From positions 411,501 to 475,500 of the forward strand of contig JAOTOM010005150.1 of NCBI GenBank assembly GCA_034440615.1: DNA of 64,000 nucleotides, written 5' to 3'. The stretch comes from Ashinkailepas kermadecensis. Lineage: Eukaryota; Arthropoda; Thecostraca; Neolepadidae. This document shows, piece by piece, positions 2,261-46,714 of the stretch; the stretch's first letter is position 1; each line of letters opens with the position of its first letter. The translations under genes were made by a program, and so were the position numbers. The notes under the pieces were generated by a model. It was not told the origin of the DNA and did no database searches. It saw nothing but the letters and a program-made list of their open reading frames with translations.

Positions 2261-2326
2261 AATACATTAATGTACTATATTATTTAATACAACGAAGAAT
2301 GGCTCTTAGATGCTCCTGGGTTTTAG

Positions 2327-2851: not shown

Positions 2852-3017
2852 CTATTTGAAGATGGCAGCACCATCGCCGGGCTCGGTGCGTAACACGACA
2901 GTGTCCAGGTCCACGTCCCCGGCGGCCGATCCGCCCGCGTAAAACTGGGACTTGAGCTTGTCGATGAACTCCTGCACACGGTGCCCGGGCACCAGAGCGA
3001 CGGCACAGCCGCCCCAT
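2852..3017 (-). CDS. GALK2: GALK2 exon G (terminal), left copy
   Basis: The 166-bp terminal exon encodes [20 protein letters not shown] to [11 protein letters not shown] and a TAG stop. WGGCAV is the glycine-rich GHMP motif 3. The acceptor region (GAACCAG|ATGG) is next to a 47-bp array whose units repeat the junction. One residue differs from the right copy (L/F in VVLRTEP). Confidence 0.93.
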
Positions 3018-5622
3018 CTGGTTCGAGGCGGATACAAGGCGTCAGTCATACAGCCCACCCCCACCCCAACTGAGGCGAGACGGATACAAGGCGTCAGTCA
3101 TACAGCCCACCCCCACCCCATCTGAGGCGAGACGGATACAAGGCGTCAGTCAGACACAGTCGTACCATCTGAGGCGAGACGGATACAAGGCGCCAGTCAG
3201 ACACAGCATCACCATCTGAGGCGATACGGATACAAGGCGTCAGTCATACAGCCCACCCCCACCCCATCTGAGGCGAGACGGATACAAGGCGTTAGTCAGA
3301 CACAGTCGTACCATCTGAGGCGAGACCGATACAAGGCGTCAGTCAGACACAGCATCACCATCTGAGACGAGACGGATACAAGACGTCAGTCAGACACATC
3401 TGAGGCGAGACAGATACAAGTACACCTAGGAACACCAGACATATAGGCCACACATACTTGTGTTCTATGCGTACTTCCATGTGTACTAGTATTGTGGAAT
3501 AGCAAAGTAAAATAAAGCTTCAAACATCTGGGAGAAGTTCCCCCCCCCCACCACCCTGCCTTCAGAACCTTAACGTCACATACACTATAACGTAAGACTC
3601 CCTTAACGGAAATATACACTTGCCAAAAAACTTGCTTGCAAAATCCACTCGCTTTAAAGCCGCACAAGTGCACCATGGTATGGCACACCTCTAATCACAC
3701 TCATCCCCCCCCCACATACACAGCAATGGATTCCCGCCAGCAAACTCATCCAGACACAGGTACATCCGAGCTAAATAAATGCAGAGTTGGGAAACCCAGC
3801 CTGTGCGGGACACATCTTCTTTCCCAATATATACAGGGAAGGCAAACATTGAGATGCATGCACATGTATCTAAGGCTTTCGAGAAACAATGTTTTTTTTT
3901 AATATGGCGGGAGTTGAGTCCGAGGGAGCCCCTTGAAGAATACACCCCTGTGCAAACCCATTGCCACTAACTGTCGAGCCAACCACCAGGAACCGCGGCC
4001 TATCCCACCCACCCATCACCATCTGCCTCTCAAGAACCCCCGGGACTAACTCCAAGAAAACTTGTGACTGGTTGTCTCGACACTGGGGATTAGCTTCCTG
4101 AACACTTTACGCTGGTTTCCTGGGCACCCATCGCTGGTTCCCTTGATACTCGGAATCGAGGACGAGTAGCCTCGGGGCCGGTTGTCTGGACGATGCCGGC
4201 CAGGTTTGCGCTCACCCTGCGCCAGTGAGGCGTGTTCCGTACGCCACGCCCTCCGCCAGGCGACAGATGGTGTCGAGCCGCTCGTGACTACATTGGTACA
4301 GCTCACGACACGAGGCGTGACTCTCGTTCATCAACTGACCCATCTTGGTGAGGGCATCCTGGCTGCCCGACTCGCACACCGACCGGAAGGCAAGCACCCG
4401 TCCGGCCTCTGCCGGCAACCACACGCTGTCAGAGACTGTCGCCCGTCCGGCCTCTGCTGACAACCACACGTTGTCAGACTGCTGCCCGTCCGGCCTCTGC
4501 CGGCAACCGCACGCTGTCAGAGACTCGTCCGTCCGGCCTCTGCCGGCAACCACGCGTTGTCAGAGACTCGTCCGTCCGGCCTCTGCCGGCAACCACACGC
4601 TGTCAGACTGTCGCCCGTCCGGCCTCTGCCGGCAACCACACGCTGTCAGAGACTGTCGCCCGTCCGGCCTCTGCCGGCAACCACACGCTGTCAGAGACTG
4701 TCACCCGTCCGGCCTCTGCCGGCAACCACACGCTGTCAGAGACTGTCGTCCGTCCGGCCTCTGCCGGCAACCACACGCTGTCAGAGACTGTCACCCGTCC
4801 GGCCTCTGCCGGCAACCACACGCTGTCAGAGACTGTCGCCCGTCCGGTCTCTGCCGGCAACCACACGCTGTTCGAGACTGTCGCCCGTCCGGCCTCTGCC
4901 GGCAACCACACGCTGTCAGAGACTGTCGCCCGTCCAGCCTCTGCCGGCAACCACACGCTGTCAGAGACTGTCGCCCGTCCAGCCTCTGCCGGCAACCACA
5001 CGCTGTCAGAGACTGTCGCCCGTCCAGCCTCTGCCGGCAACCACACGCTGTCAGAGACTGTCGCCCGTCCGGCCTCTGCCGGCAACCACACGCTGTCAGA
5101 GACTGTCGCCCGTCTGGCCTCTGCCGGCAACCACACGCTGTCAGAGACTGTCACCCGTCCGGCCTCTGCCGGAACCACACGCTGTCAGAGACTGTCACCC
5201 GTCCGGCCTCTGCCGGCAACCACACGCTGTCAGAGACTGTCGCCCGTCCGGCCTCTGCCGGCAACCACACGCTGTCAGAGACTGTCCCCCGTCCGACATC
5301 TGCGGCAACCACACACTGTCAGAGACTGTCACTTGTTGATCCCTGTCAGAGAACGTCCCCTACCGGTACACCTTTCAAAGCCGCTGGCATCCGTTGCACG
5401 CTGGCAGCTCATTGCTAGCTCGTGCATCCTGGAATTACAGTTTTGCACGCGAAATGTCGGCTGGCCAGGCAAAGGCAGACACGAATCCCAGGAGCAGATC
5501 CAGAAATCAGGACAAGGCATTTCGAGAGGATGATATTGTATTACCGGGTGACAAGACTCGTCGCATCGGACTAAGTTTGCCTTCCTCCCAACTTGCCCTG
5601 TTATCTGGATGCATATCAATGC

Positions 5623-5661
<39 letters not shown>

Positions 5662-8600
5662 GTTCACCTAAAAAGAACGCACAATATGCATTTGTTAAGC
5701 TCTTGTTTCCAGCTCTCGCAGCGTGCCTCTCTGTTGCTCGATGTGACTGAATAGTAACCAAGTGGTTGTATATGCTATCTAATAGTTGTAACGTTTCGCC
5801 TGTCTGTACTGACATTTTCTTGGGCGCTGCATGACCACTGCAGTCGATGCGCTCCTAAACCCCAATAAACAAACAAACAATACGGACATTTCCAGGAACA
5901 GTATGTACACCGTCACATATGAAGCAGATCAACGAGGCAATGCATGAGTTACCAATGAATGGTACAATTATAAGCTAAGGCAGCAGTATCGTCCAATTTG
6001 AGTCGGTCGATCATATTCACTTCATACACAATTCAAGGCGCAAAGCGTCACTTTGGCCTAAATGCTGGTGAAACATATTCCAAGACGTCCGGACACCATC
6101 ATGTCCCTGTTGGTTATTGACGGTACGCCAGTGCAAGCCGATGATTGGCGCCTCCTTTGTTGTTTTTTTTGTCTTTGGTTCTTTTCATTGGCGAGTATGA
6201 TTCTGCACGAGTATGTTCTCCACTAGGTCCCGTCTAGTCAGGGTGTGGTCGTGGACGGTCCTTGAATGTATGAGTGAAGAACCAGAATGGAGGCGACACG
6301 TGAGGCGACGCGATAATGACGCAGTGGAATGGACAAGGTAGCAACCGTTTTTGCTGGAGTTTGCAGCATTCAGATTGATTGACATTTGTAGGCATACACT
6401 GCCTGCAAGTCTGCACACTCCGAATGTGCAGGTCATTGGTGACCTGCACATTCGGTTTCTTGTGCTCGGTATCTTTTCATGACGAAAGACGATGTGCGTG
6501 TATTTTGTAGTAAATAATTAATCGAATGGAGTCGACCTCATTCACTGGGGCTACGTGACTTTGATGATATGTTTGATGCACCGACGTTACCATTATCATG
6601 ATTGCAAGGTGCCAGGTTAATGGAAATGCGGAAGATGTTGAACACGATACGAGGAGCTAATGTCAAGAAACGTCCGGGCATAAATTCGGATGAACAAACC
6701 TTGCCAACGACAAAGAGTAATAGACGATCTCACTTAGCCTAATTAAACCCATGTCAGCCATTGGGTGCGGTCTTGGCTTTGACACATCCACACATTGTGA
6801 ACTTGACTTTGTGTTCGCCAATCATGAATATATAATCGCAAAGCAGATTGATTGGCGCTGCATGACCACTGCAGTCGATGCGCCCCTAAACCCCAATAAA
6901 CAAACAAACAAACAGCAAAGCAGACTGTGTTGCCTCCGAGTGTTACGTTCGATAGGAAGTGTCCAGTTAGGACAGTGTGCTGACAGAACAAGTTGCTATG
7001 TCTTAAACCTTTGAAGCCTAGGCAATATGCTGTCTTAAGCCGTCTTAAGGTGTCCTAAGGACTTGATAAAAATGCGAGCATACACTAAGCATTGCGGCAT
7101 TCAGCAGCTAATTAAACCTTCATTTGTCGTACACTGAACAGCATAACAAGTGCCAGTGGCATAGCCAGTGCTAGATCATAATATGAGCTTAACAATTTCG
7201 CCTGCACAGTACTGACACTACACTCAACTAACTTTGTAAGTGTTGCCACGTAGATGCTACTTGTGTCCATGCACGGTGGACCTTAGCATTTCGTTTGAAG
7301 AAAGCCAGGACCCACACGTGTTTGGCACTGCAAATCTGCATGGGATTCCGTTACTCACCGAGGCCTTGGACTGGTCAATTTTGCAACACAAGTCGCTGAG
7401 TCTAAACATGGGCCACAATCCGATGTCAAACGTCTTCCGGCGACGCACTGACCTTGGAACACGTGCAGAGCCCTCTGCAACAGTCTGAACTCTGTGATGT
7501 GCCGTGTGTTGGGGCTGAGGGTGATGTCGTCCAGCTGCGACTCGGTGATCCCCAGCTCGTGACAAATCTACCGGTGCAGGTCCGGTCAAGTCAGGTCAGA
7601 TCATCCACTCTCTTTATGTACGATAAAGTGAGGCCCTTGCTAAGTACCCAGCTCGTGGAAAATCTACCGGTGTGGGTCAGGTCAAGTCAGGTCAGATCAG
7701 CCATTGCCTTGATATACAATACGCTGAGACCGTTGACATGTACCCAGCTGGTGATTCATCAAACGGCACAGAGCAGGTCAGGTCAGCTAAGGTCAGGTCA
7801 GGTCAGCTAAGATTACTTGATGCGTGGGAAGAGTAGCCATGTGGTGGGTGAAGCCAGCTAGGTTTCTGATGTCAACATGCTGTTACATCGCAACAACATC
7901 CGACAGGTCAGGTCAAGTCATCGGCGCTGCAACAGCTGCATCAGTGTCTCCACGCATCGGTTGGCAGCGAATACCAACAAGGATCAGACAGTGTTCGGAA
8001 ATTTAGACCCAATCAAGGTTGTCGTGGCTTCTTCGAAGTCAGCAGCCCGGTCAAACCACACCCACTGGCGGATCCAGGGGAGGTTCATGTCGGCCATGCC
8101 TCCACAAATCGCGAATAGGGGGAGCCAAACAAACATTTCCTCCCAACCCAACACATGGCTATTGCTACACAAGCAGAGTCTGATGTCTCAGAACTCCTCC
8201 CTAACCTGCTGGAAAATAGCCATCGCAAGCTGAACTGTGCCTGGGTCAACAAGTGTTGTGCACATGAAGGGAAACCGATGGGTCCGTGCCGGTGGCATCC
8301 ATACAGCTACCAATTCTGAAACTGGCATTTAGGTATATCATAGCAATGCATTCATGCAAATAATCGTAGATGTTTGAGACGGTTGCGATCATCGTTGTTG
8401 AAACGGTTGAGACGATATTTTTCACTGGAAAAATACATTGATAAGTACTCTATTTTTACAATGTTAATATAGTGTGGCCAAAATTCGAGAGCTTTATATT
8501 TTTGATGGGATTTTGTGCACTCGGACTTAGATGAGCTTTGTGTCGAAAATTGCTCTGTCTCAAAGTCGACCGACCGGCTTTGCCTTCGCCAAACCGATCG

Positions 8601-11600
8601 GTTGGATCCGCCTCACCAAACTGACGGTCTGGATCCGCCTCTGGCCACATACGCATGCTAATTTTATGGCGTACTTGATGCAAACTGTATTTTATTAGGT
8701 TGCCCTCGGATTCCAGGGTGTTCTTCGGTGTAATAATTCGCTGTAGATTTAACGACGGGGTTTTGTCTCATTGCTCGGAATACATCGAGCTTTCTGTCTT
8801 TGGGGCAGTTCAAGGTCCTCCAACTTTGGTCCAACCCTGCCAACAATTTCACTGTTTAACATGAAGGACTGCGTGTCAGTCTCTCTAATCAGATTTAGCT
8901 ATTTGCAGGTTTTTCCCGAGGCACACAATAAAAAATGAACCGTAATAATGATTTAACTTAGCCAACAATCAAGTCATGTGATATTTCAATATTGGCACTT
9001 CACATTCGCCGTCGTTGGTTTGTTTTTTGCATACCCACCTCCTTCTTTGTGTAGGGTTTCTGGTGCAACACTGAGAGCACCAGTTCAGCCATTTCGTCCA
9101 GCTGCAGCTCGAGATTCCTCTGAAGATCGCCAAGCCTCCGATACTTGGCCCACTCGAGACCGCGACTCTTGGCTAGCATCTGACGAAGCGCACAGCAACC
9201 GTCAACCACCAACACCCGCCACATCCGAGTGTGGCGGTCAGAGCAACCGGCAACCACCACCACCCGTCACATCCGAGCTGTGGCGGTCGCAACAACCGTC
9301 AGCCAACACCCGTCACACCTGAGCTGTGGCAGTCGCAACAACCGTCAACCACCACTACACGGTACACCCGAGCTGTGGCGGTCACAACAACCGCCAGCCA
9401 CCACCCTTCACACCTGAGCTGCGGCGGTCACAACAACCGTCAGACCACCACACGACACACCCGATCTGTGGCGGTCACAGCAACCGTCAGCCACCAACAC
9501 CCGTCACACCCGAGCTGTGGCGGTCACAACAACCGCCAGCCACCACCCGTCACACCTGAGCTGTGGCGGTCACAACAACCGTCAACCACCACCACCCGGC
9601 ACACCAGAGCTGTGGCGGTCACAACAACCGTCAACCACCACCACACGGCACACCTGAGCTGTGGCGGTCACAACAACCGCCAGCCACCACCCGTCACACC
9701 TGAGCTGTGGCAGTCACAACAACCGTCAGAACACCACACGACACACCCGAGCTGTGGCGGTCATGGCAACCGTCAACCACCAACACCCGTCACACCTGAG
9801 CTGTGGCGGTCACAACAACCGTCAACCACCAACACCACTCACTCCCGAGCTGTGGCGGTCACAACAACCGTCAACCACCACCACACGGCAAACCCGAGTT
9901 ATGATGGTCACAGTAACCGTCAACCCCAACGCCCGACACACCTGAGTTGTGGCGGTCAACCGGAGGACGAATCGTGGACAAGTGATGAGGCCCGGTAAGG
10001 TCAGCAGGCGAAGCGGCTGAACGGAACAGCGAGGCTACTGATGCTACGCATGTCACAGGTGCAAGCAAAGGAAAAGAAGCACGAACACACAAAAGGACGA
10101 AGTCCCGAGCTCTGCAGACATGAGCCACAGGTTTGGGCAGAGGGAAGGCATCACGAGATATGGCGGAGGAAAATAGTAACAATATCAGGCAGAAGATATC
10201 CGTTAAGAGGTAAGGTCGAATACGACAGTGACGAGGTGAGGAGATAATATTATGTACTGAGGATGACAGTGATGCACGATATTTATTTGGTACCTCACCA
10301 CACTGAGGGAGGAGATGCAATAGTTTTGCTACAGAAGACCGGCTCCGGCTATCTAGGTACATTGCATCCGTCCTCTTCCATTCTGGAACAATCATAAAGT
10401 AAAAATCCCGTGGTAGCGCTACCCTAGGATCTGATCCTACTGGCAAAACTAGGCAGAAAAGCGCAACTTCGAAATTGTATTCCTCAAATCGGTAGGTGCA
10501 CCCATCGTGGTGGGTGGTGAGGAAACATCACCACCCCTGGTGGGTGGTCACATGTCCTAGGTAACATCCCGGACTCGGGCACGAGGTGAACCCCCTGACC
10601 TGGGGGTAACCATGCAGCATCTCATTTCTGAATTAGGCGGTGAGCGGGAACCCTGACCTGGGTAGCCATGCAGCATCCCATATCTGAATTAAGCGGTGAG
10701 GGGGCACCCTGACCTGGGTAGCCAGCCGACACTCCATGACGCGCCAGTTGAAGTCAGAGGAGGCCGCCTTGTTCTTCTCCGCCAGACTGTTGGCGATCAC
10801 GAAGACTGCGCCCGGCGGCAGCGTCACGTCGTGCGCGCGCAGCGGGCTGAACTCAATCAACCTGGCCGTCCCTGTTGCAAGTCACAGACCCACTTCAGTA
10901 CTGGGGGTCGTGATCAAACTGTCATCAAGCAGCTGAACAGCAGCATTGCCCGGCTACAAAGTTATGCAGAAGTGAGCACAAAAACTGTAAGCCTTCCGTT
11001 GAGGCGAGAGGTGCTGGTGGCCGGTACAACAGTCAAACGTGATCCAAACAGTACATTTGTCTTGAATTTTTGTCGACAAAATGGATTGAGCGTCTCGTTC
11101 CTAGCAGCAGCTATTCAGAACTGCAAAGCATGCCGGCGTAAACATTGCACTGAAATGTAACAACTTCGTCTGCTACTCGGGACCACCTTGTGCTGCATGG
11201 AATCCCACAGCCATTCGCGAGTTATTTGGTTTTCGCATATATTCCCTCGGGTCGGTTGAACTTCACCATACCGTTATCGTTCGCGTGTACATGTTGCTGA
11301 AGAGTCTGTGTGTCCTTAAATAGCTTTTACATTGACAGCAGCGTCTTTGATGACTTGAGTTGGTCCATCTATTGCAATGAAAATATGCTCAAAATTCCAT
11401 GTATTGGCACCAGCCACAGCACAAAACAAACACCCTGCTTTTATCAAATGCAATGTTAATAACGGCTGCCAACGCGGAGCTTAGCATTGACTCACTTCGG
11501 ACATTAGTTTATGAATACGAGACAGTTTGTCTAATTAACGGGTCCATTAAGCGCAGGCAATCATGCCACGGAGGCGGGAATTGCTACATCCTGGTCGATA

Positions 11601-14600
11601 TCCTGCGAACGTAGGTGTGCTTCGAAACGCTTGCGTGTGACCACAGTCGTCAGCCAGGGACGGTGGTGTATCGACGTCCACCGGCGGTGAACTTTATCGC
11701 CTGCCATTGAAACTCGTGCTTATTGAGAAGCCGTTCCGGCGTGTTCGTTTCGATCACCACGTGCCTTTGTCACCCACACACAGTCCGATCTGTGTCGTGC
11801 TATCCACCACCGTAACTAATCAAACTCGCTTCGCTCTGCCTTGTTCTGAGACATAGTCGATCCGAATGGTTCCGTCCTGTCTTCAGGAGAACCAATTCGA
11901 CTTGATCCGTGCCGTACCTTGCTGTCAGCCACAGCCGAGCCAGCCTACCCCGCTCCATTACGTTCCTCTCCCGTCTCCTTCCGTGACCATCATCAACCGA
12001 CTCAAGTGTGCCCGTTCTGCTCCTTTCCGTTGCGTTTCGTGCGGTCGGGTGCGGTTCGGCGGAGGTGGCGGTGGTGCTGGCGACGCGATGGCGCCGGTCG
12101 GCCTGCACGGCGCGCTGGTGCGCTACTCGCTGGCCATCTGCGGCTACCTGACGCTGACGGCGCTGCACAGTCGCCGAAGTGCGGCCGCGCTGTGGCTGCT
12201 GTGCGCTCTGCCGCTCACCTGCTACCTGCTGGTGGCTCTGGGCATCGTAGTCTTCTTCATCGAGCGGCCCACGGCGTCGCGCATTATCGATTGCTTCAGC
12301 ATGGCGGGCTTACTGGTGCAGGCGGTGGTGATCCTGCTGGTGCTGGCCGGCAACCGCAGACTGCTCGACCAGCTGGACGACCAGCTGGTGGCGCTGGAGC
12401 GGCACGCCACCTGCAGCTGCCCCACCAAGCGGCGCGCCATCGTCGTGCGCGTGGTGTTCTTCTTGCTGCTGGCCACTCTCTCGTGCAGCCTGTGGTTCGC
12501 CTTCGTGTTCGCGCCAGGCAACTTCTGCCACCCACACTACCTGATCAGGATGTCGTTCACCGGTCACGTGTTCCCGGCCGTGTTCGCCTCGCCTGAGGGC
12601 TACTGGTACTGCATTGCATTCCAGAGCTTCGTTGCCATCATCACCTGCTGCCTGGTCGTCACGTTCGAGACGTGCTACTTCGTCTGGATGAACATCATCT
12701 CCTTTCACCTGGTCATCATCAGGAAGAATGTGGAGATGGTCTCTGCATCGCTCTTTGCCACTGGAGAGGGTGAGCGGCTGGAAGCCCAGAGCTGGTGCGG
12801 CTCTTCCCTGAGTGTCTCCAGAGATCGAAAGAACACCGAACCCACGAAGACCAGTAACCTCTTCACGAGCAACGTCATCGGGATGGGCGCCACGAGGCGC
12901 GAATACTCGTTCCTGGAGGGCGGCTTCGTGAAGGTGGTGACGCCAGCGAAAAACAGCACGGTACCCGACAGCGTTGTTTCAATCGGGAAGCATCAGTCAG
13001 CGGAAATTGTCGAGCCGGCGTCTGTTTCGTCCGACCTCGACCCAGAGCTTGCTCTGACAGAAGTCTACCAGTACTATAGCGAAGTGAGCAGCCTGATGAG
13101 AAGCGTGAACCGCCTGTGCGGGGTGTGTCTGTTCAGTCTCCACGTGGGAGCCATGACCACAATCCTCACCAGCACCTTCTTCATGATCGCCCTGGCCACT
13201 CAGCCCCCCTACCAGGGCCAGCATGTTCAGCTCATCAGCATCGTCGTATATGTGGTCCTCTTCCTCCTGCGGGTCGTGTTCGTCTCTGTCGATGGGAACG
13301 CGGTGTTGGAGAAGCACGCGGCTCTGGAGGACGCGCTGGTCAACATACCTTGGCTGTTAATGACGTCGGAGGCCAGACTGACGAGAGTGACGCTGTTGCA
13401 GGTCACATCGAGACCCTTTTGCATTCAAGTGCTTGGGTTTTTCACCGTCAAGAAGTCCAATGTCCTGGCAATGCTGAGCTTCATCCTCACCTACTTGGTC
13501 ATTATGATACAGACGTCTGACAGCACCACATCTCAGGCGGAAAGCACGGCCAGCGGCTGCAACACGGCAGTAGCAACAGCACCAGTTGCAATACGGCCGT
13601 AACACCAGCACTAGCACTAGCACGGCCACCTGGGTGTCTAACTAACACCAACAGCAATGCCTTCCCAACACTAGCTCTAGCAATGAAGTTGGCCGTAGCA
13701 CCAGCACCAACACAGCCGTAAAACCAGTACCAGCAGTAATGCGGTGGTAACATCATTACCAGAGTATCACCACTGCCGATACAGTCCACAACTGCCTCAT
13801 AGTTCTTCGAACAGATGGCGTAGCGAACGCACTTCTCCCTCTTCTAATAGATAGGTAAATACTACTTTCTGAATTGGTATGTCTCACAATATTTGTGTCC
13901 TTTGTCTTTGTGTGTACATTATGCTTTTGGTGTCTGATGCCTTTGTGATTTTCAATATCATAAATAGATGGAGTGCAATACACGGACACGCTTTCTGGAG
14001 CTGGTTTCCATCAAGGGACAGCTTGATCCATACAGCTCTGTCAATCCCGTATGCTTTGTGGGTTCGCCGTATGTGTTCTGCATAGTATAGCTGTTTCAAT
14101 CTTTTGACCTATGACCTGGACAAGGGCCACGTCTACCAGTTGCCACACTATACAGCATTTCCGTACTACCTGCTGGCCCAGTGGCCAATAGCTGGTCACA
14201 TATTGCCCAGTGATCAATAACGAACCATAGATTGTCCACTCGCCAATAACTGATACGATGTACACTGCACAGGACTCATCAAAAGTACTTATAATATACT
14301 TATATAGCCATAAATGAATGTCTATATCTCCGATGTTTTTGGTGTGAAAGGTGTGTTTGTGATGGCCCACGAATAGGAAAGCACGCTTTCCTTAAACCTC
14401 GTGTGAATGCTGTCAACGTTGTTTTCCGAATAAAATAAGGTAAAATCTGAATGTGACCTACTTTCTGGCGTGAATTGGAGGTTTCTTGGCCACGCTCCTG
14501 CGCGAAGCGAGGGGGAGGGATGCGTACTGCACTGAATGACGGCTGGTGACATTATGTATAGAGGGCCTTTTTTGGACAAACACGACCTCGCCGGAGGGCA

Positions 14601-21795: not shown

Positions 21796-21818
21796 CCCAG
21801 TAACGTGCATGCATGACA

Positions 21819-26340: not shown

Positions 26341-27302
26341 TAGTGTGGTGCCAGAGCTGGCAGTAGTATTGTGTCAGAGCTGGCAGTAGTGTCTTGCGAG
26401 AGCTGGCAGTAGTGTCGTGTCTGAGCTGGAAGTAGTGTGGTTTCGGAACTGGTAGTAGTGTGGCGTCAGAGCTGGCGGTAGTGTGGTGTCAGCTGGCAGT
26501 AGTGTGGTGTCTGCTGGCAGTAGTGTGGTGAAAGAGCTGGCAGTAGAGCGATGTCAGAGCTGGAAGTAGTGTAGTGTCAGCGCTGGCAGTAGTGTGGTAC
26601 CAGAGCTGGCAGTAATGTGGTGTCAGAGCTGGCAGTATGGTGCCAGAGCTGGCAGTAGTGTGGTGCCAGAGCTGGCAGTAGTGTTGTGTCAGAGCGGCAG
26701 TAGTGTTGTGTCAGAGCTGGCAGTAGTGTCTTGCGAGAGCTGGCAGTAGTGTGGTGTCTGAGCTCGCAGTAGTGTGGTTTCGGAGCTGGTAGTAGTGTGG
26801 TGTCAGAGCTGGCGGTAGTGTGGTGTCAGCTGGCAGTAGTGTGGTGTCAGCTGGCAGTAGTGTGGTGAAAGAGCTGGCAGTAGAGCGGTGTCAGAGCTGG
26901 CAGTAGTGTAGTGTCAGAGCTGGAAGTAGTGTGGTGCCAGAGCTGGTAGTGTTGTACCAGAGCTGGCAGTAGTGTGATGCCAGAGCTGGCAGTAGTGTGG
27001 GGCCAGAGCTGGCCGAAGTGTGGTGCCAGAGCTGGCAGCAGTGTGGTGCCAGAGCTGGCGGTGTGGTACCAGAGCTGGCAGTAGTGTGGTGCCAGAGCTG
27101 GCAGCAGTGTGGTACCAGAGCTGGCAGTAGTGTGGTGCCAGAGCTGGCAGTAGTGTGGTATCAGAGCTGGCAGTAGTGTGGTACCAGAGCTGGCAGTGTG
27201 GTGTCAGAGCTGGCAGTAGTGTGGTGTCAGAGCTGGCAGTAGTGTGGTGCCAGATGCTGTCGGTGTGTCCAGAGCTGGCTAGTAGTGTGGTGCCTGTAGG
27301 GA
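26341..27302. repeat. 23-bp minisatellite at the spacer/right-arm boundary
   Basis: About 40 degenerate units of CAGAGCTGGCAGTAGTGTGG plus TGC occur, with period changes where units are trimmed. The array ends exactly where the inverted-repeat homology begins. It has no left-arm counterpart. Confidence 0.93.
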
Positions 27303-28324
27303 TACTAACCACGTGTGGTTTGTCACATTTCGACCCGTGGTTCAAGGATCAGATGAAGTCGAAGTGGTAACCTCGTTTGTGAAACTCCCGAATTGGTATC
27401 CGGAAACGCTATTTTCTAGTGCCTATGGGTAAACATGGACACCAAATCCAGTTCCCGCGTGCAAATTAACCATAGAGCCCAAGCTGGGCTGAAAAGCCGA
27501 AAAAAGTCATCCGAGGTCAAATTGGGTCGATCACCTGGAATGCCCCGGTAAGAGTCGATGACATGGATATTGCTTGTATACTTTTGAAGGCGAAAGTACC
27601 CCATCAATGCTGGCTTTCCTCCCAATAGTTTCGACTTTTAACATGGAACCCTGGGGAGCATGGCCCCCAGTCCATTTGGGTGCGCCCATTGCCTCCATGT
27701 ATTGTGCTTCCACCCAATAATCTTCAGAAATCAACGCCCCTGGTCAATGACATTATGTAAACAGTTCAGTTGAGTTGTCAATAATCCTACCACACCCATC
27801 GTTGGTCAATTGGGAGCAATATGTGAAGCATATTGCCGTTAAGTCGCGACTTAGCCGAAAAATAGCCTGACATGCGACGTCTCATCACTTTAAATGGCTG
27901 TAGCCTGGCAAGACATCTTCAATTTATTATACCAGAAAGACGGCAGAGGATGCTACAACATCTAGGTGAGGATGTGGCTCGCGTCGGTGCGTCATGTTTC
28001 CGTGGTCGTGAAAACCCCTTATGGAGTCGCATCAATCCTTGTACGGGCGAGAAACTCAGACCAACAGTGGCCAAAACGAAAATACATTGTGGCTAATGGC
28101 TACACCGCACTTGACGATTTGTTTAGTTTTACTATCACCATGGATAATGCCGGATAATTCTGCCGATAATTCTGGAAGGGCCATGCCGAATTTAAATTCC
28201 TGGCTGCAGAGGAGATGTTGCGGCACGGCAGCTCAGCTCGCCCCTGTTGTATGATCCTTTATTTTATTTCCTGCTATTGTGGAATTGCTCGCTGTCCGTG
28301 TGATTGGCACGGCATGTACGGCAG

Positions 28325-28433
28325 GTGGCGGTGACCAAGTCCGAGATAGCCAGCCTGTGCGCTCATTCAGAGCGCTATATCGGAACCGAGGGCGGCGGCA
28401 TGGACCAGGCCATCTGCTTTCTCGCCAAGAAAG
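28325..28433 (+). CDS. GALK2: GALK2 exon B, right copy
   Basis: The 109-bp exon encodes [18 protein letters not shown] then [18 protein letters not shown]. The acceptor is GTACGGCAG at 28316-28324 and the donor AAAG|GTGGGT. It ends in phase 1, and the next coding base is at 32833. Confidence 0.93.
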
Positions 28434-31400: not shown

Positions 31401-34400
31401 TAAGCCCACCACGCTCAAACACTCGATAATGCGCGACGTCGTGGTTCGCTCGATGAACAAGACTACGATGCCCAGAGCCACCAGCAGGTAGCAGGTGAGC
31501 GGCAGAGCGCGCAGCAGCCACAGCGCGGCCGCACTTCGGCGACTGTGCAGCGCCGTCAGCGTCAGGTAGCCGCAGATGGCCAGCGAGTAGCGCACCAGCG
31601 CGCCGTGCAGGCCGACCGGCGCCATCGCGTCGCCAGCACCACCGCCACCGCCGCCGAACCGCACCCGACCGCACGAAACGCAACGGAAAGGAGCAGAACG
31701 GGCACACTTGAGTCGGTTGATGATGGTCACGGAAGGAGACGGAGAGGAACGTAATGGGGCGGGGTAGGCTGGATCGGCTGTGGCTGACAGCAAGGTACGG
31801 CACGGATCAAGTCGAATTGGTTCTCCTGAAGACAGGACGGAACCATTCGGATCGACTATGTCTCAGAACAAGGCAGAGGGAAGCGAGTTTGATTAGTTAC
31901 GGTGGTGGATAGCACGACACAGATCGGACTGTGTGTGGGTGACAAAGGCACGTGGTGATCAAAACGAACACGCCGGAACGGCTTCTCAATAAGCACGAGT
32001 ATCAATGGCAGGCGATAAAGTTCACCTCCGGTGGACGTCGATACACCACCGTCCCTGTCTGATGACTGTGGTCACACGCAAGCGTTTCGAAGCACACCTA
32101 CGTTGGCAGGATATCGACCAGGATGTAGCAATTCCCGCCTCCGTGGCATGATTGCCTGCGCTTAATGGGCCCGTTAATTTGACAATTCATACACTAATGT
32201 CCGAAGTGAGTCAATGCTAAGCTCCGCGTTGGCAGCCGTTATTGACATTGCATTTGGTGAAAGCAGGGTGTTTGCTTTGTGCTGTGGCTGGTGCCAATAC
32301 ATGGAATTTTGAGCATATTTTCATTGCAATAGATGGACCAACTCAAGTCATCAAAGACGCTGCTGTCAATGTAAAAGCTATTTAAGGACACACAGACTCT
32401 TTAGCAACATGTACACGCGAACGATAACGGTATGGTGAAGTTCAACCGACCCGAGGGAATATATGCGAAAACCAATTAACTCGCGAATGGCTGTGGGATT
32501 CGATGCAGCACAAGGTGGTCCCGAGTAGCAGACGAAGTTGTTACATTTCAGTGCAATGTTTATGCCGGCATGCTTTGCAGTTCTGAATAGCTGCTGCTAG
32601 GAACGAGACGCTCAATCCATTTTTGTCGACAAAAATTCAAGACAAATGTACTGTTTGGATCACGTTTGACTGTTGTACCAGCCACCAGCACCTCGCGCCT
32701 CCAACGGAAGACTTGCAGTTTTTTGTGCTCACTTATGCACAACTTTGTAGCCGGGCAATGCTGCTGTTGAGCTGCTTGATGACAGTTTGATCACGACCCC
32801 CAGTAGTGAAGTGGGTCTGTGACTTGCGACAGGGACGGCCAAGTTGATTGAGTTCAGCCCGCTGCGCGCGCACGACGTGTCGCTGCCGCCAGACGCAGTC
32901 TTCGTGATCGCCAACAGTCTGGCGGAGAAGAACAAGGCGGCCTCCTCTGACTTCAACTGGCGCGTCATGGAGTGTCGGCTGGCTACCCAGGTCAGGGTGC
33001 CCCCTCACCGCTTAATTCAGATATGGGATGCTGCATGACTACCCAGGTCAGGGTTCCCGCTCACCGCCTAATTCAGAAATGAGATGCTGCATGGTTACCC
33101 CCAGGTCAGGGAGTTCACCTCGTGCCCGAGTCAGGGCTGTTACCTAGGACATGTAACCACCCACCAGGGGTGGTGATGTTTCTTCACCACCCACCACGAT
33201 GGGTGCACCTACCGACTTGAGGAATACAATTTCGAAGTTGTGCTTTTCTGCCTAGTCTTGCCAGTAGGATCAGATCCTAGGGTAGCGCTACCACGGGATT
33301 TTTACTTTATGATTGTTCCAGAATGGAAGAGGACGGATGCAATGTACCTAGATAACCGGAGCCGGACTTCTGTAGCGAAACTATTGCATCTCCTCCCTCT
33401 GTGTGGTGAGGTACCAAAGAAATATCGTGCATCACTGTCATCCTCAGTACATAATATTATCTCCTCACCTCGTCACTGTCGTATTCGACCTTACCTCTTA
33501 ACCTCTTATCTTCTGCCTGATACTGTGACTATTTTCCTCCGCCATATTTCGTGATGCCTTCCCGCTGCCCAAACCTGTGGCTCATGTCTGCAGAGCTCGG
33601 GACTTCGTCCTTTTGTGTGCAACTTCGTGCCTCTTTTCCTTTGCTTGCACCTGTGACATGCGTAGCATCAGTAGCCTCGCTGTTCCGTTCAGCCGCTTCG
33701 CCTGCTGACCTTACCGGGCCTCATCACTTGTCCACGATTCGTCCTCCGGTTGACCGCCACAACTCAGGTGTGTCGGGCGTTGGGGTTGACGGTTACTGTG
33801 ACCATCATAACTCGGGTGTGTCGTGTGGTGGTGGTTGACGGTTGTTGTGACCGCCACAGCTCGGGTATGAGAGGTGTTGGTGGTTGACGGTTGTTGTGAC
33901 CGCCACAGCTCGGGTGTGTCGTGTGGTGGTCTGACGGTTGTTGTGACCGCTACAGTTCAGGTGTGCCGGGTGGTGGTAGTTGACGGTTGTTGTGACCGCC
34001 ACAGCTCGGGTATGAGAGGTGTTGGTGGTTGACGGTTGTTGTGACCGCCACAGCTCGTGTATGAGAGGTGTTGGTGGTTGACGGTTGCTGTGACCGCCAG
34101 AGCTCGGGTGTGCCGTGTGGTGGTGGTTGACGGTTGCTGTGACCGCCACAGCTCAGGTGTGCCGGGTGTTGGTGGTTGACGGTTGTTGTGACCGCCACAG
34201 CTCGGGTGTGCCGGGTGTTGGTGGTTGACGGTTGTTGTGACCGCCACAGCTCGGGTGTACCGTATGGAGGTGGTTGACGGTTGTTGCGACTGCCACACCT
34301 CAGGTGTGACGGGTTGTGTTGGCTGACGGTTGCTGTGACCGCCACACTCGGATGTGGCGGGTGTTGGAGGTTGACGGTTGCTGTGCGCTTCGTCAGATGC

Positions 34401-37400
34401 TAGCCAAGAGTCGCGGCCTCGAGTGGGCCAAGTACCGGCGGCTTGGCGATCTTCAGAGGGATCTCGAGCTGCAGCTGGACGAAATGGCTGAACTGGTGCG
34501 CTCAGTGTTGCACCAGGAACCCTACACAAAGAAGGAGGTGGGTATGCAAGAAACAAACCAACGACGGCGAATGTGAAGTGCCAATATTGAAATATCACAT
34601 GACTTGATTGTTGGCTAAGTGAAATCATTATTACGGTTCATTTTTTCTTGTGTGCCTCGGGAAAAACCTGCAAATAGCTAAATCTGATTAGAGAGACTGA
34701 CACGCAGTCCTTCATGTTAAACAGTGAAATTGTTGGCAGGGTTGGACCAAAGTTGGAGGACCTTGAACTGCCCCAAAGACAGAAAGCTCGATGTATTCCG
34801 AGCAATGAGACAAAACCCCATCGTTAAATCTACAGCGAATTATTACACCGAGGAACACCCTGGAATCCGAGAGCAACCTAATAAAATACAGTTTGCATCA
34901 AGTACGCCATAAAATTAGCATGCGTATGTGGCCAGAGGCGGATCCAGACGGTCAGCTTGTGGAGGCGGATCCAGCCGATCGGTTTGGCGAAGGCAAAGCC
35001 GGTCAGTCGGCTTGGAGACAGGCAATTTTCGACACAAAGCTCATCTAAGTCGGAGTGCACAAAATCCCATCAAAAATATAAAGCTCTCGAATGTTGGCCA
35101 CACTATATTAACATTGTAAAAATAGACACAACTTATCAATGGATTTTTCCAGTGCAAAATATCATCTCAACCGTTTCAAAAACGATGATCGCAACCGTCT
35201 CAAACATCTGCGATTATTTGCATGAATGCATTGCTACGATATACCTAAATGCCAGTTTCAGAATTTGTAGCTGTATTGATGCCACCGGCACGGACCCATC
35301 GATTTCCCTTCATGTGCACAACACTTGTTGACGCAGGCACAGTTCAGCTTGCGATAGCTATTTTGCAGCAGGTTAGGGAGGAGTTCTGAGACATCAGACT
35401 CTGCTTGTGTAGCAATAGCCATGTGTTGGGTTGGGAGGAAATGTTTGTTTGGCTCCCCCTATTCGCGATTTGTGAAGGCATGGCCGACATGAACTTCCCC
35501 TGGATCCGCCAGTGGGTGTGGCTTGACCGGGCTGCTGACTTCGAAGAAGCCACGACAACCTTGATTGGGTCTAAATTTCCGAACGCTGTCTGATACTTGT
35601 TGGTATTCGCTGCCAACCGATGCGTGGAGACACTGATGCAGCTGTTGCAGCGCCGATGACTTGACCTGACCTGTCGGATGTTGTTGCGATGTAACAGGAT
35701 GTTGGCATCAGAAACCTAGCTGGCTTCACCCACCATATGGCTACTCTTCCCACGCATCAAGTGATCTTAGCTGACCTGACCTGTTCTGCGCCGTCTGAAC
35801 AGACGGCACAGAACAGAACAGAACAGACTCATGTGTCGGTGAGAATCACAAGCTGGGTACATGTCAACGGCCTCAGCGTATTGTATATCAAGGCAATGGC
35901 TGATCTGACTTTTGACCTGACCCCACCGGTGATTTGCCCAGCTGGGTCTTAGAAGGGCCTCACTTTATCGTAATAAAGAGAGTGGCTGATCTGACCTGAC
36001 TTGACCTGACCTGCACCGGTAGATTTGTCACGAGCTGGGGATCACCGAGTCGCAGCTGGACGAAATCACCCTCAGCCCCAACACACGACACATCACAGAG
36101 TTCAGACTGTTGCAGAGGGCTCTACACGTGTTCCAAGGTCAGTGCGTCGCCGGAAGACGTTGACATCAGATTGTGGCCCATGCTTAAACTCAGCGACTTG
36201 TGTTGCAAAATTAACCAGTCCAAGGCCTCTATGAGTAACGGAATCCATGCAGATTTGCAATGCCAAACATGTGTGTGTCCTGGCTTTCCTCGAACGAAAT
36301 GCTATGGTCCACCGTGCATGGACACAAGTAGCATCTACGTGGCAACACTTACAAAGTTAGTTGAGTGTAGTGTCAGTACTGTGCAGGCGAAATTGTTAAG
36401 CTCATATTATGATCTACCACTGGCTATGCCACTGGCACTTGCTGTGCTGTTCAGTGTACGCCAATGAAGGTTTAATTGTCTGCTGGATGCCGCAATGCTT
36501 AGTGTATACTCGCATTTTTCTCGAATCCTTAGGACACCTTAAGACGGCTTAAGACAGCATATTGCCTAGGCTTCAAAGGTTTAAGACATAGCAACTTGTT
36601 CTGTCAGCACACTGTCCTAACTGGACACTTCCTATCGAACGTAACACGCGGAGGCAACACAGTCTGCTTTGCTGTTTGTTTGTTTGTTGGGGTTTAGGGA
36701 CGCATCGACTGCAGTGGTCATGCAGCGCCCATCAATCTGCTTTGCGATTATATATTCATGATTGGCGAACACAAAGGCAAGTTCACAAGGTGTGGATGTG
36801 TCAAAGCCAAGACCGCACCGAATGGCTGACATGGGCTGAATTAGGCTAAGTGAGATCGTCTATTACTCTTTGTCGTTGGCAAGGTTTGTTCATCCGAATT
36901 TATGCCCGGACGTTTCTTGACATTAGTTCCTCGTATCGTGTTCAACATCTTCCGCATTTCCATTAACCTGGCACCTTGCAATCATGATAATGGTAACGTC
37001 GGTGCATCAAATATATCATCAAAGTCACGTAGCCCCAGTGAATGAGGTCGACTCCATTCGATTAATTATTTACTACAAAATAAACGCACATCGTCTTTCG
37101 TCATGAAAAAATACCGAGCACAAGAAACCGAATGTGCAGGTGACCAATGCAGTGTATGCCTACAAATGTCAATCAATCTGAATACTGCAAACTCTAGCAA
37201 AAACGGTTGCTACCTTGTCCATTCCACTGCGTCATTATCGCGTCGCCTCACGTGTCGCCTCCATTCTGGTTCTTCACTCATACATTCAAGGACCGTCCAC
37301 GACCACACCCTGACTAGACGGGACCTAGTGGAGAACATTACTCGTGCAGAATCATACTCGCCAATGAAAAGAACCAAAGACAAAAAAAAACAACAAAGGA

Positions 37401-37897
37401 GGCGCCAATCATCGGCTTGCACTGGCGTACCGTCAATAACCAACAGGGACATGATGGTGTCCGGACGTCTTGGAATATGTTTGACCAGCATTTAGGCCAA
37501 AGTGACGCTTTGCGCCTTGAATTGTGTATGAAGTGAATATGATCGACCGACTCAAATTGGATGATACTGCTGCCTTAGCTTATAATTGTACCATTCGTTG
37601 GTAACTCATACATTGCCTCGTTGATCTGCTTCATATGTGACGGTGTACATACTGTTCCTGGAAATGTCGGTATTGTTTGTTTGTTTATTGGGGTTTAGGG
37701 GCGCATCGACTGCAGTGGTCATGCAGCGCCCAAGAAAATGTCAGTACAGACAGGCGAAACGTTACAACTATTAGATAGCATATAAAACCACTTGGTTACT
37801 ATTCAGTCACATCGAGCAACAGAGAGGCACGCTGCGAGAGCTGGAAACAAGAGCTTAACAAATGCATATTGTGCGTTCTTTTTAGGTGAACTTTATA

Positions 37898-37941
<44 letters not shown>

Positions 37942-40900
37942 AATGCATTGATATGTATCCAGATAACAGGGTAAGTTGGGAGGAAAGCGAACTTAGTCCG
38001 ATGCGACGAGTTTTGTTACACGGTAATACAATATCCTCCTCTCGAAATGTCTTGTCCTGTTTTCTGGATCTGCTCCTGGGATTCGTGTCTGCCTTTGCCT
38101 GGCCAGTCGACATTTCGCGTGCAAAACTGTAATTCCAGGATGCACGAGCTAGCAATGAGCTGCCAGCGTGCAACGGATGCCGACGACTTTGAAAGGTGTA
38201 CCGGTAGAGGACGTTCGCTGACAGGGATCAACATGTGACAGTCTCTGACAGCGTGTGGTTGCCGGCAGAGGCCGGACGGGCGACAGTCGCTGACAGCGTG
38301 TGGTTGCCGGCAGAGGCCGGACGGGCGACAGTCTCTGACAGCGGTGGTTGCCGGCAGAGGCCGGACAGGCGACAGTCTCTGACAGCGTGTGGTTGCCGGC
38401 AGAGGTCGGACGGACGACAGTCTCTGATAGCGTGTGGTTGCCGGCAGAGGCCGGACGGGCGACAGTCTCTGACAGCGTGTGGTTGCCGGCAGAGGCCGGA
38501 CGGGCGACAGTCTCTGACAGCGTGTGGTTGCCGGCAGAGGCCGGACGGGCGACAGTCTCTGACAGCGTGTGGTTGCCGGCAGAGGCCGGACGGGCGACAG
38601 TCTCTGACAGCGGGTGGTTGCCGGCAGAGGCCGGACGGGTGACAGTCTCTGACAGCGGGTGGTTGCCGGCAGAGGCCGGACGGGTGACAGTCTCTGACAG
38701 CGTGTGGTTGCCGGCAGAGGCCGGACGGGCGACAGTCTCTGACAGCGTGTGGTTGCCGGCAGAGGCCGGACGGGCGACAGTCTCTGACAGCGTGTGGTTG
38801 CCGGCAGAGGCCGGACGGGCGACAGTCTCTGACAGCGTGTGGTTGCCGGCAGAGGCCGGACGGGCGACAGTCTCTGACAGCGTGTGGTTGCCGGCAGAGG
38901 CCGGACGGGTGCTTGCCTTCCGGTCGGTGTGCGAGTCGGGCAGCCAGGATGCCCTCACCAAGATGGGTCAGTTGATGAACGCGAGTCACGCCTCGTGTCG
39001 TGACCTGTACCAGTGTAGTCACGAGCGGCTCGACACCATCTGTCGCCTGGCGGAGGGCGTGGCGTACGGAACACGCCTCACTGGCGCAGGGTGAGCGCAA
39101 ACCCGGCCGGCATCGTCGAGACAACCGGCCCCGAGGCTACTCGTCGCCGATTCCGAATATCAAGGGAGCCAGCGATGGGTGTCCAGGAAACCAGCGTCAA
39201 GTGTTCAGGAAGCTAATCCCCGGTGTCGAGACAACCAGTCACAAGTTTTCTTGGAGTTAGTCCCGGGGGTTCTTGAGAGGCAGGTGGTGATGGATGGGTG
39301 GGATAGGCCGCGGTTCCTGGTGGTTGGCTCGTCAGTTAGTGGCAATGGGTTTGCACAGGGGTGTATTCTTCAAGGGGCTCCGTCGGAGTCAACTCGCGCC
39401 ATATTTAAAAAAAAAATTGTTTCTCGAAAGCCCTAGATACATGTGCATGCATCTCAATGTTTGCCTTCCCTGTATATATTGGAAAAGATGATGTGTCCCG
39501 CACAGGCTGGGTTTCCCACCTCTGAATTTCTAAAGCTGGAATGTACCTGTGTCTGGATGAGTTTGTTGGCGGGAATCCATTGCTATGTGTGTGGGGGGGA
39601 TGAGTGTGATTAGAGGTGTGCCATACCATAGTGGACTTGTGCGGCCTTTAAATCGAGTGGATTTTGCAAGCAAGTTTTTTGGCAAGTGTATATTTCCGTG
39701 AAGGGAGTCTTACGTTATAGTGTATGTGACGTTAAGGTGCTGAAGGCAGGGTGGTGGGGCGGGGAACATCTCCCAGATGTTTGAAGCTTTATTGTACTTT
39801 CCTATTCCACAATACTAGTACACATAGAAGTACGCATAGAACACAAGCATGAGTGGCCTATATGTCTGGTGTTCCTAGGTGTACATCTGTCTCGCCTCAG
39901 ATGTGTCTGACTGACGCCTTGTATCCGTCTCGTCTCAGATGGTGATGCTGTGTCTAACTTGTATCCTCTTGCCTTGTATCCGTCTCGCCTCAGATGGTAC
40001 GACTGTGTCTGACTGACCCCTTGTATCCGTCTCACCTCAAATGGTACGACTGTGTCTGACTGACGCCTTGTATCCGTCTCACCTCAGATGGTACGACTGT
40101 GTCTGACTGACGCCTTGTATCCGTCTGGCCTCAGATGGTGATGCGGTGTTTCACTGACGCCTTGTATCGGTCTCACCTCAGATGGTGATGCTGTGTTTTA
40201 CTGACGCCTTGTATCCGTCTCGCCTCAGATGGTGATGCTGTGTTTGACTGACGCCTTGTATCCGTCTCACCTCAGATGGTGATGCTGTGTCTGACTGACG
40301 CCTTGTATCCGTCTCACCTCAGATGGTGATGCTGTGTCTACTTGTTATCGCCTTGTATCCGTCTCACCTCAGATGGTACGACTGTGTCTGACTGACTCCT
40401 TGTATCCGTCTCACCTCAGATGGTGATGCTGTGTCTGACTGACGCTTTGTATCCGTCTCGCCTCAGATGGGGCGTCAGTGTCTGACTGACGCCTTGTATC
40501 CGTCTCGCCTCAGATGGTGATGTTGTGTCTAACTTGTATCATCTTGCCTTGTATCCGTCTCGCCTCAGATGGTGATGCTGTGTTTGACTGACGCCTTGCA
40601 TCCGTTTCGCCGCAGATGGGGCGGCTATGTCTCACTGACGCCTTGTATCAGTCTCGCCTCAGATGAGGTGGGGGTGGGCTGTATGACTGACGCCTTGTAT
40701 CCGTCTCACCTCAGATGGAGCGGCTGTGTCTGACTGACGCCTTGTATCCGTTTCGCCTCAGATGGGGTGAGGGTGGGCTGTATGACTGACGCCTTATATC
40801 CGCCTCGCCTCAGATGGGGGGCGGCTGTGTTTGACTGACGCCTTGTGTCCGCCTCGCCTCAGATGGTACGACTGTGTCTGACTGACGCCTTGTACCCGCC

Positions 40901-41075
40901 TCGTCTCAGATGGGGCGGCTGTGCCGTCGCTCTGGTGCCCGGGCACCGTGTGCAAGAGTTCATCGACAAGCTCAAGTCCCAGTTTTACGCGGGCGGATCG
41001 GCCGCCGGGGACGTGGACCTGGACACTGTCGTGTTCCGCACCGAGCCCGGCGATGGTGCTGCCATCTTCAAATAG
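28325..41075 (+). CDS. GALK2: N-acetylgalactosamine kinase (GALK2-type), right copy, lacks exon A and upstream
   Basis: Six exons (B-G) splice to 293 codons plus stop. All are open, with intact GT-AG junctions identical in position to the left copy. Exon A and everything upstream are absent, because the inverted repeat ends inside intron A-B at about 27303. The copy therefore lacks the ATP-binding loop [10 protein letters not shown] and cannot encode a complete kinase as it stands. Few residue differences from the left copy are seen (for example C/G and A/T in exon B, E/K in exon D, A/E and D/E in exon F). This fits either a young truncated duplicate or the second allele of one locus misplaced by assembly. 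No frameshift or stop was seen in the exons. Confidence 0.85.
30111..31625 (-). CDS. Gustatory receptor-like seven-helix protein, right copy
   Basis: The inverted counterpart of the gene at 12088-13602, also 504 residues and intronless, about 93% identical (roughly 36 residue differences by eye). The helix 7 signature TYLVIMIQ is retained, with M for T just after it. Differences cluster in residues 39-77, the loop around 237-254 and the end of helix 5 through helix 6 (362-390), while 113-216 has only the change at 217 nearby. No stop or frameshift is present, so both copies look functional. The gene is nested in GALK2 intron B-C of the right copy on the opposite strand. An upstream extension to 31793 is rejected because its frame differs from the left copy. 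Confidence 0.85.
   Translation of the reverse strand: MAPVGLHGALVRYSLAICGYLTLTALHSRRSAAALWLLRALPLTCYLLVALGIVVLFIERTTTSRIIECLSVVGLLVQAVVILLVLAGNRRLLDQLDDQLVALERHATCSCHTKRRAIVVRVVFFLLLATLSCSLWFAFVFAPGNFCHPHYLIRMSFTGHVFPAVFASPEGYWYCIAFQSFVAIITCCLVVTFETCYFVWMNIISFHLVIIRKNVEKVSASLFATGEGERLEAQSWRGCALGVSRDRKNIEPTETSNLFTSNVIGMGATRREHSFLEGGFVKVVTPAKNSTVPDSVASIGKHQSAEIVEPVSVSSDLDPELALTEVYQHHSEVSSLMRRVNRLCGMCLFSLHVGAMTTILTGTFFMIGLATQPPYQGQQLQLISFIVYVGLFLLRVVFVSVDGNAVLEKHAALEDALANIPWLLMTSEARLTRETLLQVTSRPFCIQVLGFFTVKKSNVLAMLSFILTYLVIMIQMSDSTTSQAESTASSCNTAVATSPVVIRP
32833..32990 (+). CDS. GALK2: GALK2 exon C, right copy
   Basis: The 158-bp exon encodes (G)[34 protein letters not shown] and ends MECRLATQ. 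The acceptor is TTGCGACAG and the donor ACCCAG|GTCAGG. The donor is followed by two more copies of TACCC(CC)AGGTCAGG at about 56-bp spacing. Confidence 0.93.
32991..33115. repeat. 56-bp units repeating the exon C donor, right copy
   Basis: GCTACCCAG|GTCAGGGT at the exon end is followed by GACTACCCAGGTCAGGGT and GTTACCCCCAGGTCAGGG. The donor and last exon bases are therefore present three times. Confidence 0.82.
33770..34396. repeat. 49-bp minisatellite abutting the exon D acceptor, right copy
   Basis: About 13 units of GACGGTTGTTGTGACCGCCA then CAGCTCGGGTGTGCCGGGTG and TTGGTGGTT occur. In the final unit the sequence after GACGGTTGCTGTG is CGCTTCGTCAG|ATGC, the real splice acceptor. Every unit has a CAG at the equivalent place. 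Confidence 0.9.
34397..34537 (+). CDS. GALK2: GALK2 exon D, right copy
   Basis: The 141-bp exon starts [20 protein letters not shown] and ends HQEPYTKKE. It is in phase 0 at both ends. The acceptor CTTCGTCAG directly follows the last unit of the 49-bp array. The donor is GGAG|GTGGGT. Confidence 0.92.
35760..36022. repeat. 93-bp tandem units spanning the exon E acceptor, right copy
   Basis: Degenerate units repeat AGCTGGGT, GGCCTCA, TGGCTGATCTGACCTGAC and CACCGGT(A)G|ATTTG, ending at the true acceptor 36022/36023. The outermost unit is disrupted by a hairpin at 35778-35815. Confidence 0.8.
36023..36137 (+). CDS. GALK2: GALK2 exon E, right copy
   Basis: The 115-bp exon encodes [19 protein letters not shown] to [10 protein letters not shown]. 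The acceptor CACCGGTAG is preceded by about three degenerate 93-bp units that repeat the acceptor and first exon bases. The donor is CAAG|GTCAGT. Confidence 0.92.
36673..36730 (-). repeat. Short (AAAC)n-tailed element, right arm copy 1
   Basis: The inverted-arm counterpart of 6854-6913. Confidence 0.65.
37672..37731 (-). repeat. Short (AAAC)n-tailed element, right arm copy 2
   Basis: The inverted-arm counterpart of 5822-5880. Confidence 0.65.
37893..37942. repeat. (TA)n microsatellite, right arm
   Basis: A TA run of about 50 bp interrupted by TTTA. It is the counterpart of 5628-5657 with a different length. Confidence 0.95.
38237..38897. repeat. 45-bp minisatellite spanning the exon F acceptor, right copy
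   Basis: About 15 nearly identical units are present, with one 1-bp deletion near 38342. On the plus strand each unit encodes [15 protein letters not shown] in frame with exon F. The array ends exactly at the real acceptor (38897/38898). Confidence 0.93.
38898..39090 (+). CDS. GALK2: GALK2 exon F, right copy
   Basis: The 193-bp exon encodes [20 protein letters not shown] to GTRLTGAG. Upstream, the frame stays open through the 45-bp array to at least 38348, so the exon could be longer if an earlier acceptor copy is used. The boundary chosen here gives HVFQ|EAGRVL, which aligns with known GALK2 without insertion. Confidence 0.92.
39895..40909. repeat. 47-bp minisatellite spanning the exon G acceptor, right copy
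   Basis: About 21 units of GACTGACGCCTTGTATCCG plus TCTCGCCTCAG|ATGG and TGATGCTGTGTCT or TACGACTGTGTCT occur. Some units read ATGGGGCGGCTGTG, identical to the first bases of exon G. The last unit becomes the true acceptor at 40909/40910. The unit length of 47 is not a multiple of three. Confidence 0.92.
40910..41075 (+). CDS. GALK2: GALK2 exon G (terminal), right copy
   Basis: The 166-bp exon encodes [20 protein letters not shown] to GDGAAIFK and a TAG stop at 41073. The acceptor is CGTCTCAG|ATGG, and about 21 upstream 47-bp units carry the same CTCAG|ATGG boundary. I saw no clear AATAAA signal in the following few hundred bases. Confidence 0.93.
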
Positions 41076-46680: not shown

Positions 46681-46714
46681 CACTGTGCCATGCAATGATG
46701 CAACGACAGCGTAT

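Follow-up and report, generated by a model that had tools for sequence, protein, structure and literature searches.

Tandem arrays across the splice junctions of a barnacle GALK2 gene: probable arthropod counterparts of the amphioxus 'mirage' minisatellites

Why should more than half of the splice junctions of one gene lie in tandem repeats that are unrelated to one another? The question is raised by GALK2 (N-acetylgalactosamine kinase) of the barnacle Ashinkailepas kermadecensis, whose exons A to G lie on the minus strand of a 64,000-base-pair (bp) window (contig C4653:411501-475500, from an assembly of 907.66 Mb in 4689 contigs; positions without a contig name are those of the window). A preliminary description of this DNA had placed seven GALK2 junctions in or against arrays of unrelated sequence and period, and Tandem Repeats Finder (TRF) recovers all seven, out of 13 GALK2 junctions in the window, each with a separate array. 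We think it probable, at roughly two chances in three, that these arrays are minisatellites of the kind called 'mirages' in amphioxus, which arise as local tandem duplications across exon-intron junctions and later expand.

The units are of minisatellite size (45-96 bp), and, as had been described, exon bases (10-47 nucleotides, nt) belong to six of the seven arrays, with the exon D array, which stops short of its acceptor, standing apart (Table 1). One period needed correction, since the exon E acceptor array had been given as 93 bp and TRF makes it 96 bp. At the exon G acceptor, the 13 exon nt lie in the copy of the array on the right arm of the locus (see below); the TRF call in the left arm ends 7 nt short, yet its last unit is then followed by ATGGGGCGG, as in the right arm. 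By motif count, the splice-site AG or GT is retained from unit to unit, in 8/8 units at the G acceptor, 3/3 at the A acceptor, 3/3 at the C donor, 2/2 at E and 13/16 at D, and YAG is present in 21/21 motif copies of the exon F acceptor array. The motif used for the A donor proved too loose (14 copies against 4.1 TRF units), and its count was set aside. TRF finds no array at the B acceptor, the B donor, the C acceptor, or the D, E and F donors. The first three had been named earlier as the exception among the junctions, a wording that fails once the other three donors are counted.

The exon edges, too, had been drawn correctly. Exons A to G have AG/GT ends and form a single open frame when joined; together with an upstream exon from contig C3025 they encode 416 residues, the frame staying open and the GT-AG ends consistent throughout, and this product matches three galactokinase/GHMP Pfam models. 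Among 120 homologues listed, the best named matches are the predicted GALK2 proteins of the barnacles Amphibalanus amphitrite (74%) and Pollicipes pollicipes (77%), and the other named animals checked in that list reach at most 57%, which makes a thoracican barnacle the most likely host. Neither of these two predicted proteins has a single insert at any array junction in the alignment, so the exon-adjacent splice site would be expected to be the one used in the mRNA.

The window also holds an inverted duplication, overlooked in the preliminary description, with arms of about 18-19 kb (about -1428..17910 and 27295..44991) on either side of a spacer (17911-27294). Identity between the arms is 88-97% by segment, and in five segments that together align over 11,996 bases the mismatches amount to 4.2%. 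Exons B to G are present in both arms, and the right-arm arrays are therefore copies that add no cases; the right-arm exon E array is degraded. Rearranged copies of the locus occupy C3025:101001-157000 (loci L015-L019), where exon A occurs three times and where exons B to G, or part of them, and the spacer sequence are found in both orientations, and contigs C3076 and C300 hold at least exon F each. The copies on C4653, C3025 and C3076 have their arrays at matching junctions, so the arrays probably predate the duplication and represent seven events. The numbers of units vary between locus copies (21.0, 15.0, 13.9 and 19.0 for F; 6.9, 19.8, 18.7 and 7.7 for G; 16.0, 13.0 and 20.0 for D), but the assembly does not separate alleles from paralogous copies. 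The upstream (N) exon, with the motif GRVNLIGEH, lies at C3025:117682-117515 and has arrays at neither of its two junctions; it was not found in 164 kb around the window, nor elsewhere on C4653 among 20 matches listed. Because it was found only on C3025, neither window copy is demonstrated as a whole gene, and the order of the GALK2 pieces may partly be a matter of assembly.

Exon A is informative about how such arrays form. In three of its four copies the acceptor has the 75-bp array and the donor the 95-bp array. No donor array is present in the fourth (C3025:115462-115264), whose acceptor has, besides the 75-bp units, a 96-bp duplication (2.0 copies) extending 68 nt into the exon. The 96-bp units are 95% alike, and the 75-bp units of the other copies 90-93%. 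Thus, a second duplication, with other ends, struck the same junction. Duplication across the exon A acceptor has recurred, and the nested duplication shows a route by which exon sequence enters an array.

Within GALK2, contact between arrays and exons is more frequent than random placement gives. Of the eight arrays that are 100 bp or longer, seven touch exons, whereas eight arrays placed at random make a mean of 0.46 or 1.28 contacts under two null rules, and seven or more in 0/20,000 draws under each. Junctions with arrays are also more frequent than in a sample of other genes (7/13 versus 18/125, Fisher P=0.0023). However, both tests are post hoc, as GALK2 was chosen after its arrays had been noticed. 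The idea that certain 'hot genes' in the sample attract arrays was dropped, gene-to-gene heterogeneity being not significant (P=0.36).

The 125 sampled junctions were picked irrespective of arrays and come from CCT chaperonin (22 acceptors and 25 donors in 8 genes) and myosin (39 of each). For CCT, the best 30 of 52 matches by E-value were taken, four were dropped (two suspected allelic duplicates and two long open frames), and four acceptors and one donor at profile ends were excluded; for myosin, 40 of 78 matches were hand-picked before arrays were inspected, with one donor excluded as well as one acceptor that fell at the start of the profile. Splice sites in the sample were set by a simple AG/GT score and are uncertain by some bases. 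Arrays touch 11/61 acceptors and 7/64 donors and span 13/125 junctions with at least 3 exon nt, and at loci L038, L044, L075 and L077 they extend 40-53 nt into the exon. In the paralogue GALK1, read by eye, arrays lie at most 16 bp from 3/3 junctions, and the same type of array flanks exons on many other contigs. From this small sample of other genes, arrays seem to concentrate close to the edges of exons in the genome. The GALK1 exons on contig C4364 (L011 and L012) are flanked by arrays, for example one of 117 bp in 9.2 copies (98%) after one donor. Long open frames of matches had hinted at stop-free myosin introns, and this was discarded when three were translated and all three contained stops.

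The gathering is graded with distance. When each array is collapsed to one unit before its edges are counted, their density falls from 1.92 per kb in the junction bin to 1.44 between 15 and 60 bp and 1.04 between 60 and 150 bp, and to 0.18-0.46 at greater distances. In the CCT flanks (1.45 kb), 14 of 31 events fall within 150 bp versus 6.8 expected (P=0.003), the event rate there is 4.4 times that further out (gene bootstrap 95% confidence interval 2.4-6.5, 8 genes), and the junction bin holds 9 events versus 2.4 expected (P=0.00025). A comparison of arrays with random intron positions, as the preliminary description had proposed, thus comes out positive in the CCT sample. A rate test on the pooled events gives P=2.3e-8 (37 in 25,473 bp versus 19 in 59,924 bp), but it takes its deep rate nearly all from CCT and ignores gene clustering, and we prefer within-flank permutation and the gene bootstrap. 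The contrast between the junction bin and 15-150 bp in the sample gives P=0.094. Two other properties change with distance: outside arrays, the content of guanine plus cytosine (GC) falls from 0.61 at 3-50 bp to 0.51 at 50-150 bp and 0.44-0.47 further out, and dispersed repeats make up 3% of the first 150 bp of CCT flanks and 8-21% further out, percentages that are lower bounds.

If the GALK2 arrays are mirages, tandem duplications of about 45-100 bp, with one end on either side of a splice junction, would have founded them, and unequal exchange or slippage would then have lengthened them. A duplication crossing the junction would be tolerated and leave the protein unchanged because splicing can keep using the exon-adjacent copy, the surplus unit copies becoming intron, while a duplication within the exon would not be tolerated. 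To account for the pile-up near exons, mutation or survival would also have to be biased over the first ~150 bp of intron; our guess is that local duplication is frequent in the GC-rich DNA that flanks exons in this genome.

Several points weigh against this reading. Which array copy is spliced is a prediction from the alignment of orthologues, and the difference in donor arrays among exon A copies may be either a gain or a loss. Myosin flanks (at most 260 bp) are flat, with 9 events in the junction bin versus 11.2 expected (P=0.88) and 23 of 25 events within 150 bp versus 24.0 expected, and over five settings of the pooled within-flank permutation P ranges from 0.006 to 0.023 for the 150-bp zone and from 0.045 to 0.20 for the junction bin. 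Array base coverage has no peak at the splice site (0.14-0.17 at acceptors and 0.08-0.10 at donors, 0.08-0.17 in the deep flank), with a broad high 50-300 bp before acceptors, though coverage is a poor test because long exon-anchored arrays fill distant bins. The link between GC and arrays is a correlation only. From the flat myosin flanks, the P value of 0.094 and the flat coverage, we place the scale of the bias at ~150 bp.

The first alternative, which we consider unlikely, is a process aimed at splice junctions themselves. Examples would be R-loops formed during transcription, forks that stall where nucleosomes bind exon edges, or duplication centred on AG|GT, as models of intron gain have it. 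The preliminary description had favoured a process acting at splice sites, and part of that idea stands: arrays are centred on GALK2 junctions, at a density in one gene that no random draw reached, the CCT junction bin is in excess, and different copies show two different duplications at the exon A acceptor. A sharp junction focus, however, does not emerge. The excess is spread over ~150 bp and absent from myosin flanks, the GALK2 tests are post hoc, and the sampled genes are not significantly heterogeneous. Duplication at AG|GT, the form first suggested, finds a match among the seven array junctions at the two donors only. The five acceptors read ACAG|GGTG, TCAG|ATGC, GTAG|ATTT, GCAG|AGGC and CCAG|ATGG, all without AGGT, and the AG|GT model is thus unfit for them.

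Somewhat less probable again is that mutation is even along the intron: young transposons would dilute deep intron, where arrays would be lost, older exon-flanking DNA would retain them, and GALK2 would be a chance extreme. The paucity of dispersed repeats near CCT exons and the flat coverage at the junction are consistent with this, and since the share of sequence in arrays is 13.4% for the window and 10.6% for 164 kb, exon contact should be common. Yet the observed repeat content, though a lower bound, is too low for a 4.4-fold ratio, and the placement nulls are strongly exceeded in GALK2. That the arrays or the inverted duplication come from misassembled repeats or haplotypes is very improbable, for although contigs carry the locus in pieces and in different arrangements, with exon D cut at C3025:104685 and the whole gene on no contig here, the same arrays occur at the same junctions on C4653, C3025 and C3076, similar ones are found on many other contigs, and reading frames are intact across the seven junctions (none of which vouches for the order of the inverted arms).

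Table 1. GALK2 exons and junction arrays in the window, with their right-arm copies.
Feature	Position	Strand	Details	Basis
Exon A	21416..21614	-	GHMP-kinase motif region	open frame, GT-AG, orthologues
Exon B	16773..16881	-	both edges array-free	open frame, GT-AG
Exon C	10714..10871	-		open frame, GT-AG
Exon D	9039..9179	-		open frame, GT-AG
Exon E	7453..7567	-		open frame, GT-AG
Exon F	4216..4408	-		open frame, GT-AG
Exon G	2852..3017	-	last exon, carries stop	open frame, GT-AG
Array, exon A acceptor	21567..21787	-	75 bp x3.0, 47 exon nt	TRF, copy comparison
Array, exon A donor	21041..21427	-	95 bp x4.1, 11 exon nt	TRF, copy comparison
Array, exon C donor	10593..10724	-	56 bp x2.3, 10 exon nt	TRF
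Array, exon D acceptor	9191..9958	-	49 bp x16.0, stops 12 nt short of acceptor	TRF
Array, exon E acceptor	7551..7754	-	96 bp x2.1, 16 exon nt	TRF
Array, exon F acceptor	4397..5330	-	45 bp x21.0, 11 exon nt	TRF, motif count
Array, exon G acceptor	3004..3398	-	47 bp x6.9	TRF
Right arm	27295..43543	+	continues to 44991; holds copies of exons B-G	
Exon B, right arm	28325-28433	+		
Exon C, right arm	32833-32990	+		
Exon D, right arm	34397-34537	+		
Exon E, right arm	36023-36137	+		
Exon F, right arm	38898-39090	+		
Exon G, right arm	40910-41075	+		
Array, exon C donor, right arm	32983..33111	+	56 bp	TRF
Array, exon D acceptor, right arm	33751..34385	+	49 bp x13.0	TRF
Array, exon F acceptor, right arm	38237..38909	+	45 bp x15.0	TRF
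Array, exon G acceptor, right arm	39971..40923	+	47 bp x19.8, 13 exon nt	TRF

The window holds other elements as well. A GALK2 intron contains a 581-residue intronless open frame (11857-13602, plus strand) with matches to insect-type chemosensory receptors (7tm_7, 7tm_6). An insertion present in the left arm only (15043-16546) is accompanied by a reverse transcriptase frame (RVT_1, 15615-16577, minus strand), and a second RVT_1 frame lies in the spacer (24857-25315), where a 23-bp array of 954 bp (26339-27292) stops 3 bp short of position 27295, where the right arm has its inner border. Further along, a second inverted pair is formed by 16/42-bp arrays at 46711-47140 and 60013-60458, 91% identical, and a degenerate array of TTAGG, the arthropod telomere motif, lies within the contig at 55282-55587.

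Junction-spanning minisatellites have been described as mirages in amphioxus, in Adh3, the globins BflGb6 and BflGb9, and PGBD5 (PMC3087553, PMC3902484), and have been proposed as a source of intron gain (PMC3087553). In the passages that describe them, mirages affect one or two junctions per gene, and RT-PCR (reverse transcription PCR) shows normal splicing (PMC3087553, PMC3902484). Further traits attributed to mirages are unit numbers that differ between haplotypes and, at the Adh locus, reported somatic length instability (as cited in PMC3087553). The GALK2 arrays resemble them in size and, in six of seven, in a unit that carries intron and exon bases across the junction; they differ in belonging to a barnacle rather than a chordate, in affecting 7/13 junctions of one gene, and in that normal splicing here is predicted from the alignment of orthologues. 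The earlier statement that no described case has so many junctions therefore needs dividing, as the kind was known and the count per gene is higher here than in those passages. Human genes in segmental duplications likewise have variable minisatellites at exon-intron boundaries after recent duplication, with 27 intron modifications, but there most of the variation is among recent primate copies and transcripts are altered (PMC2812944), whereas the barnacle arrays are common to the copies and probably predate their duplication. Intron gain by AGGT tandem duplication, as outlined in PMC3087553, shares the local tandem duplication beside a splice site, but not the sequence of five of the seven GALK2 sites. 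We found no description of mirages outside amphioxus in the open-licence literature searched, and no report there of minisatellites or tandem repeats at barnacle introns; a term look-up in the barnacle genome papers PMC8917513, PMC9582164 and PMC11331182 was negative.

The GALK2 arrays are thus probably mirages in an arthropod, a distant phylum, and unusually dense ones. A broader proposal, which we regard as doubtful, is that in barnacles a duplication process acts at exon-intron junctions genome-wide, such that introns would grow outward through private minisatellites into which exon sequence is repeatedly fed, while the arrays would keep supplying cryptic splice sites, lengthening introns and occasionally giving rise to new ones. 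Mirages in a barnacle, at more than half of the junctions of one gene and 18/125 of those sampled, would make such arrays a general trait of some genomes rather than a lancelet oddity, and they offer a place to test whether tandem duplication at exon edges feeds intron growth.

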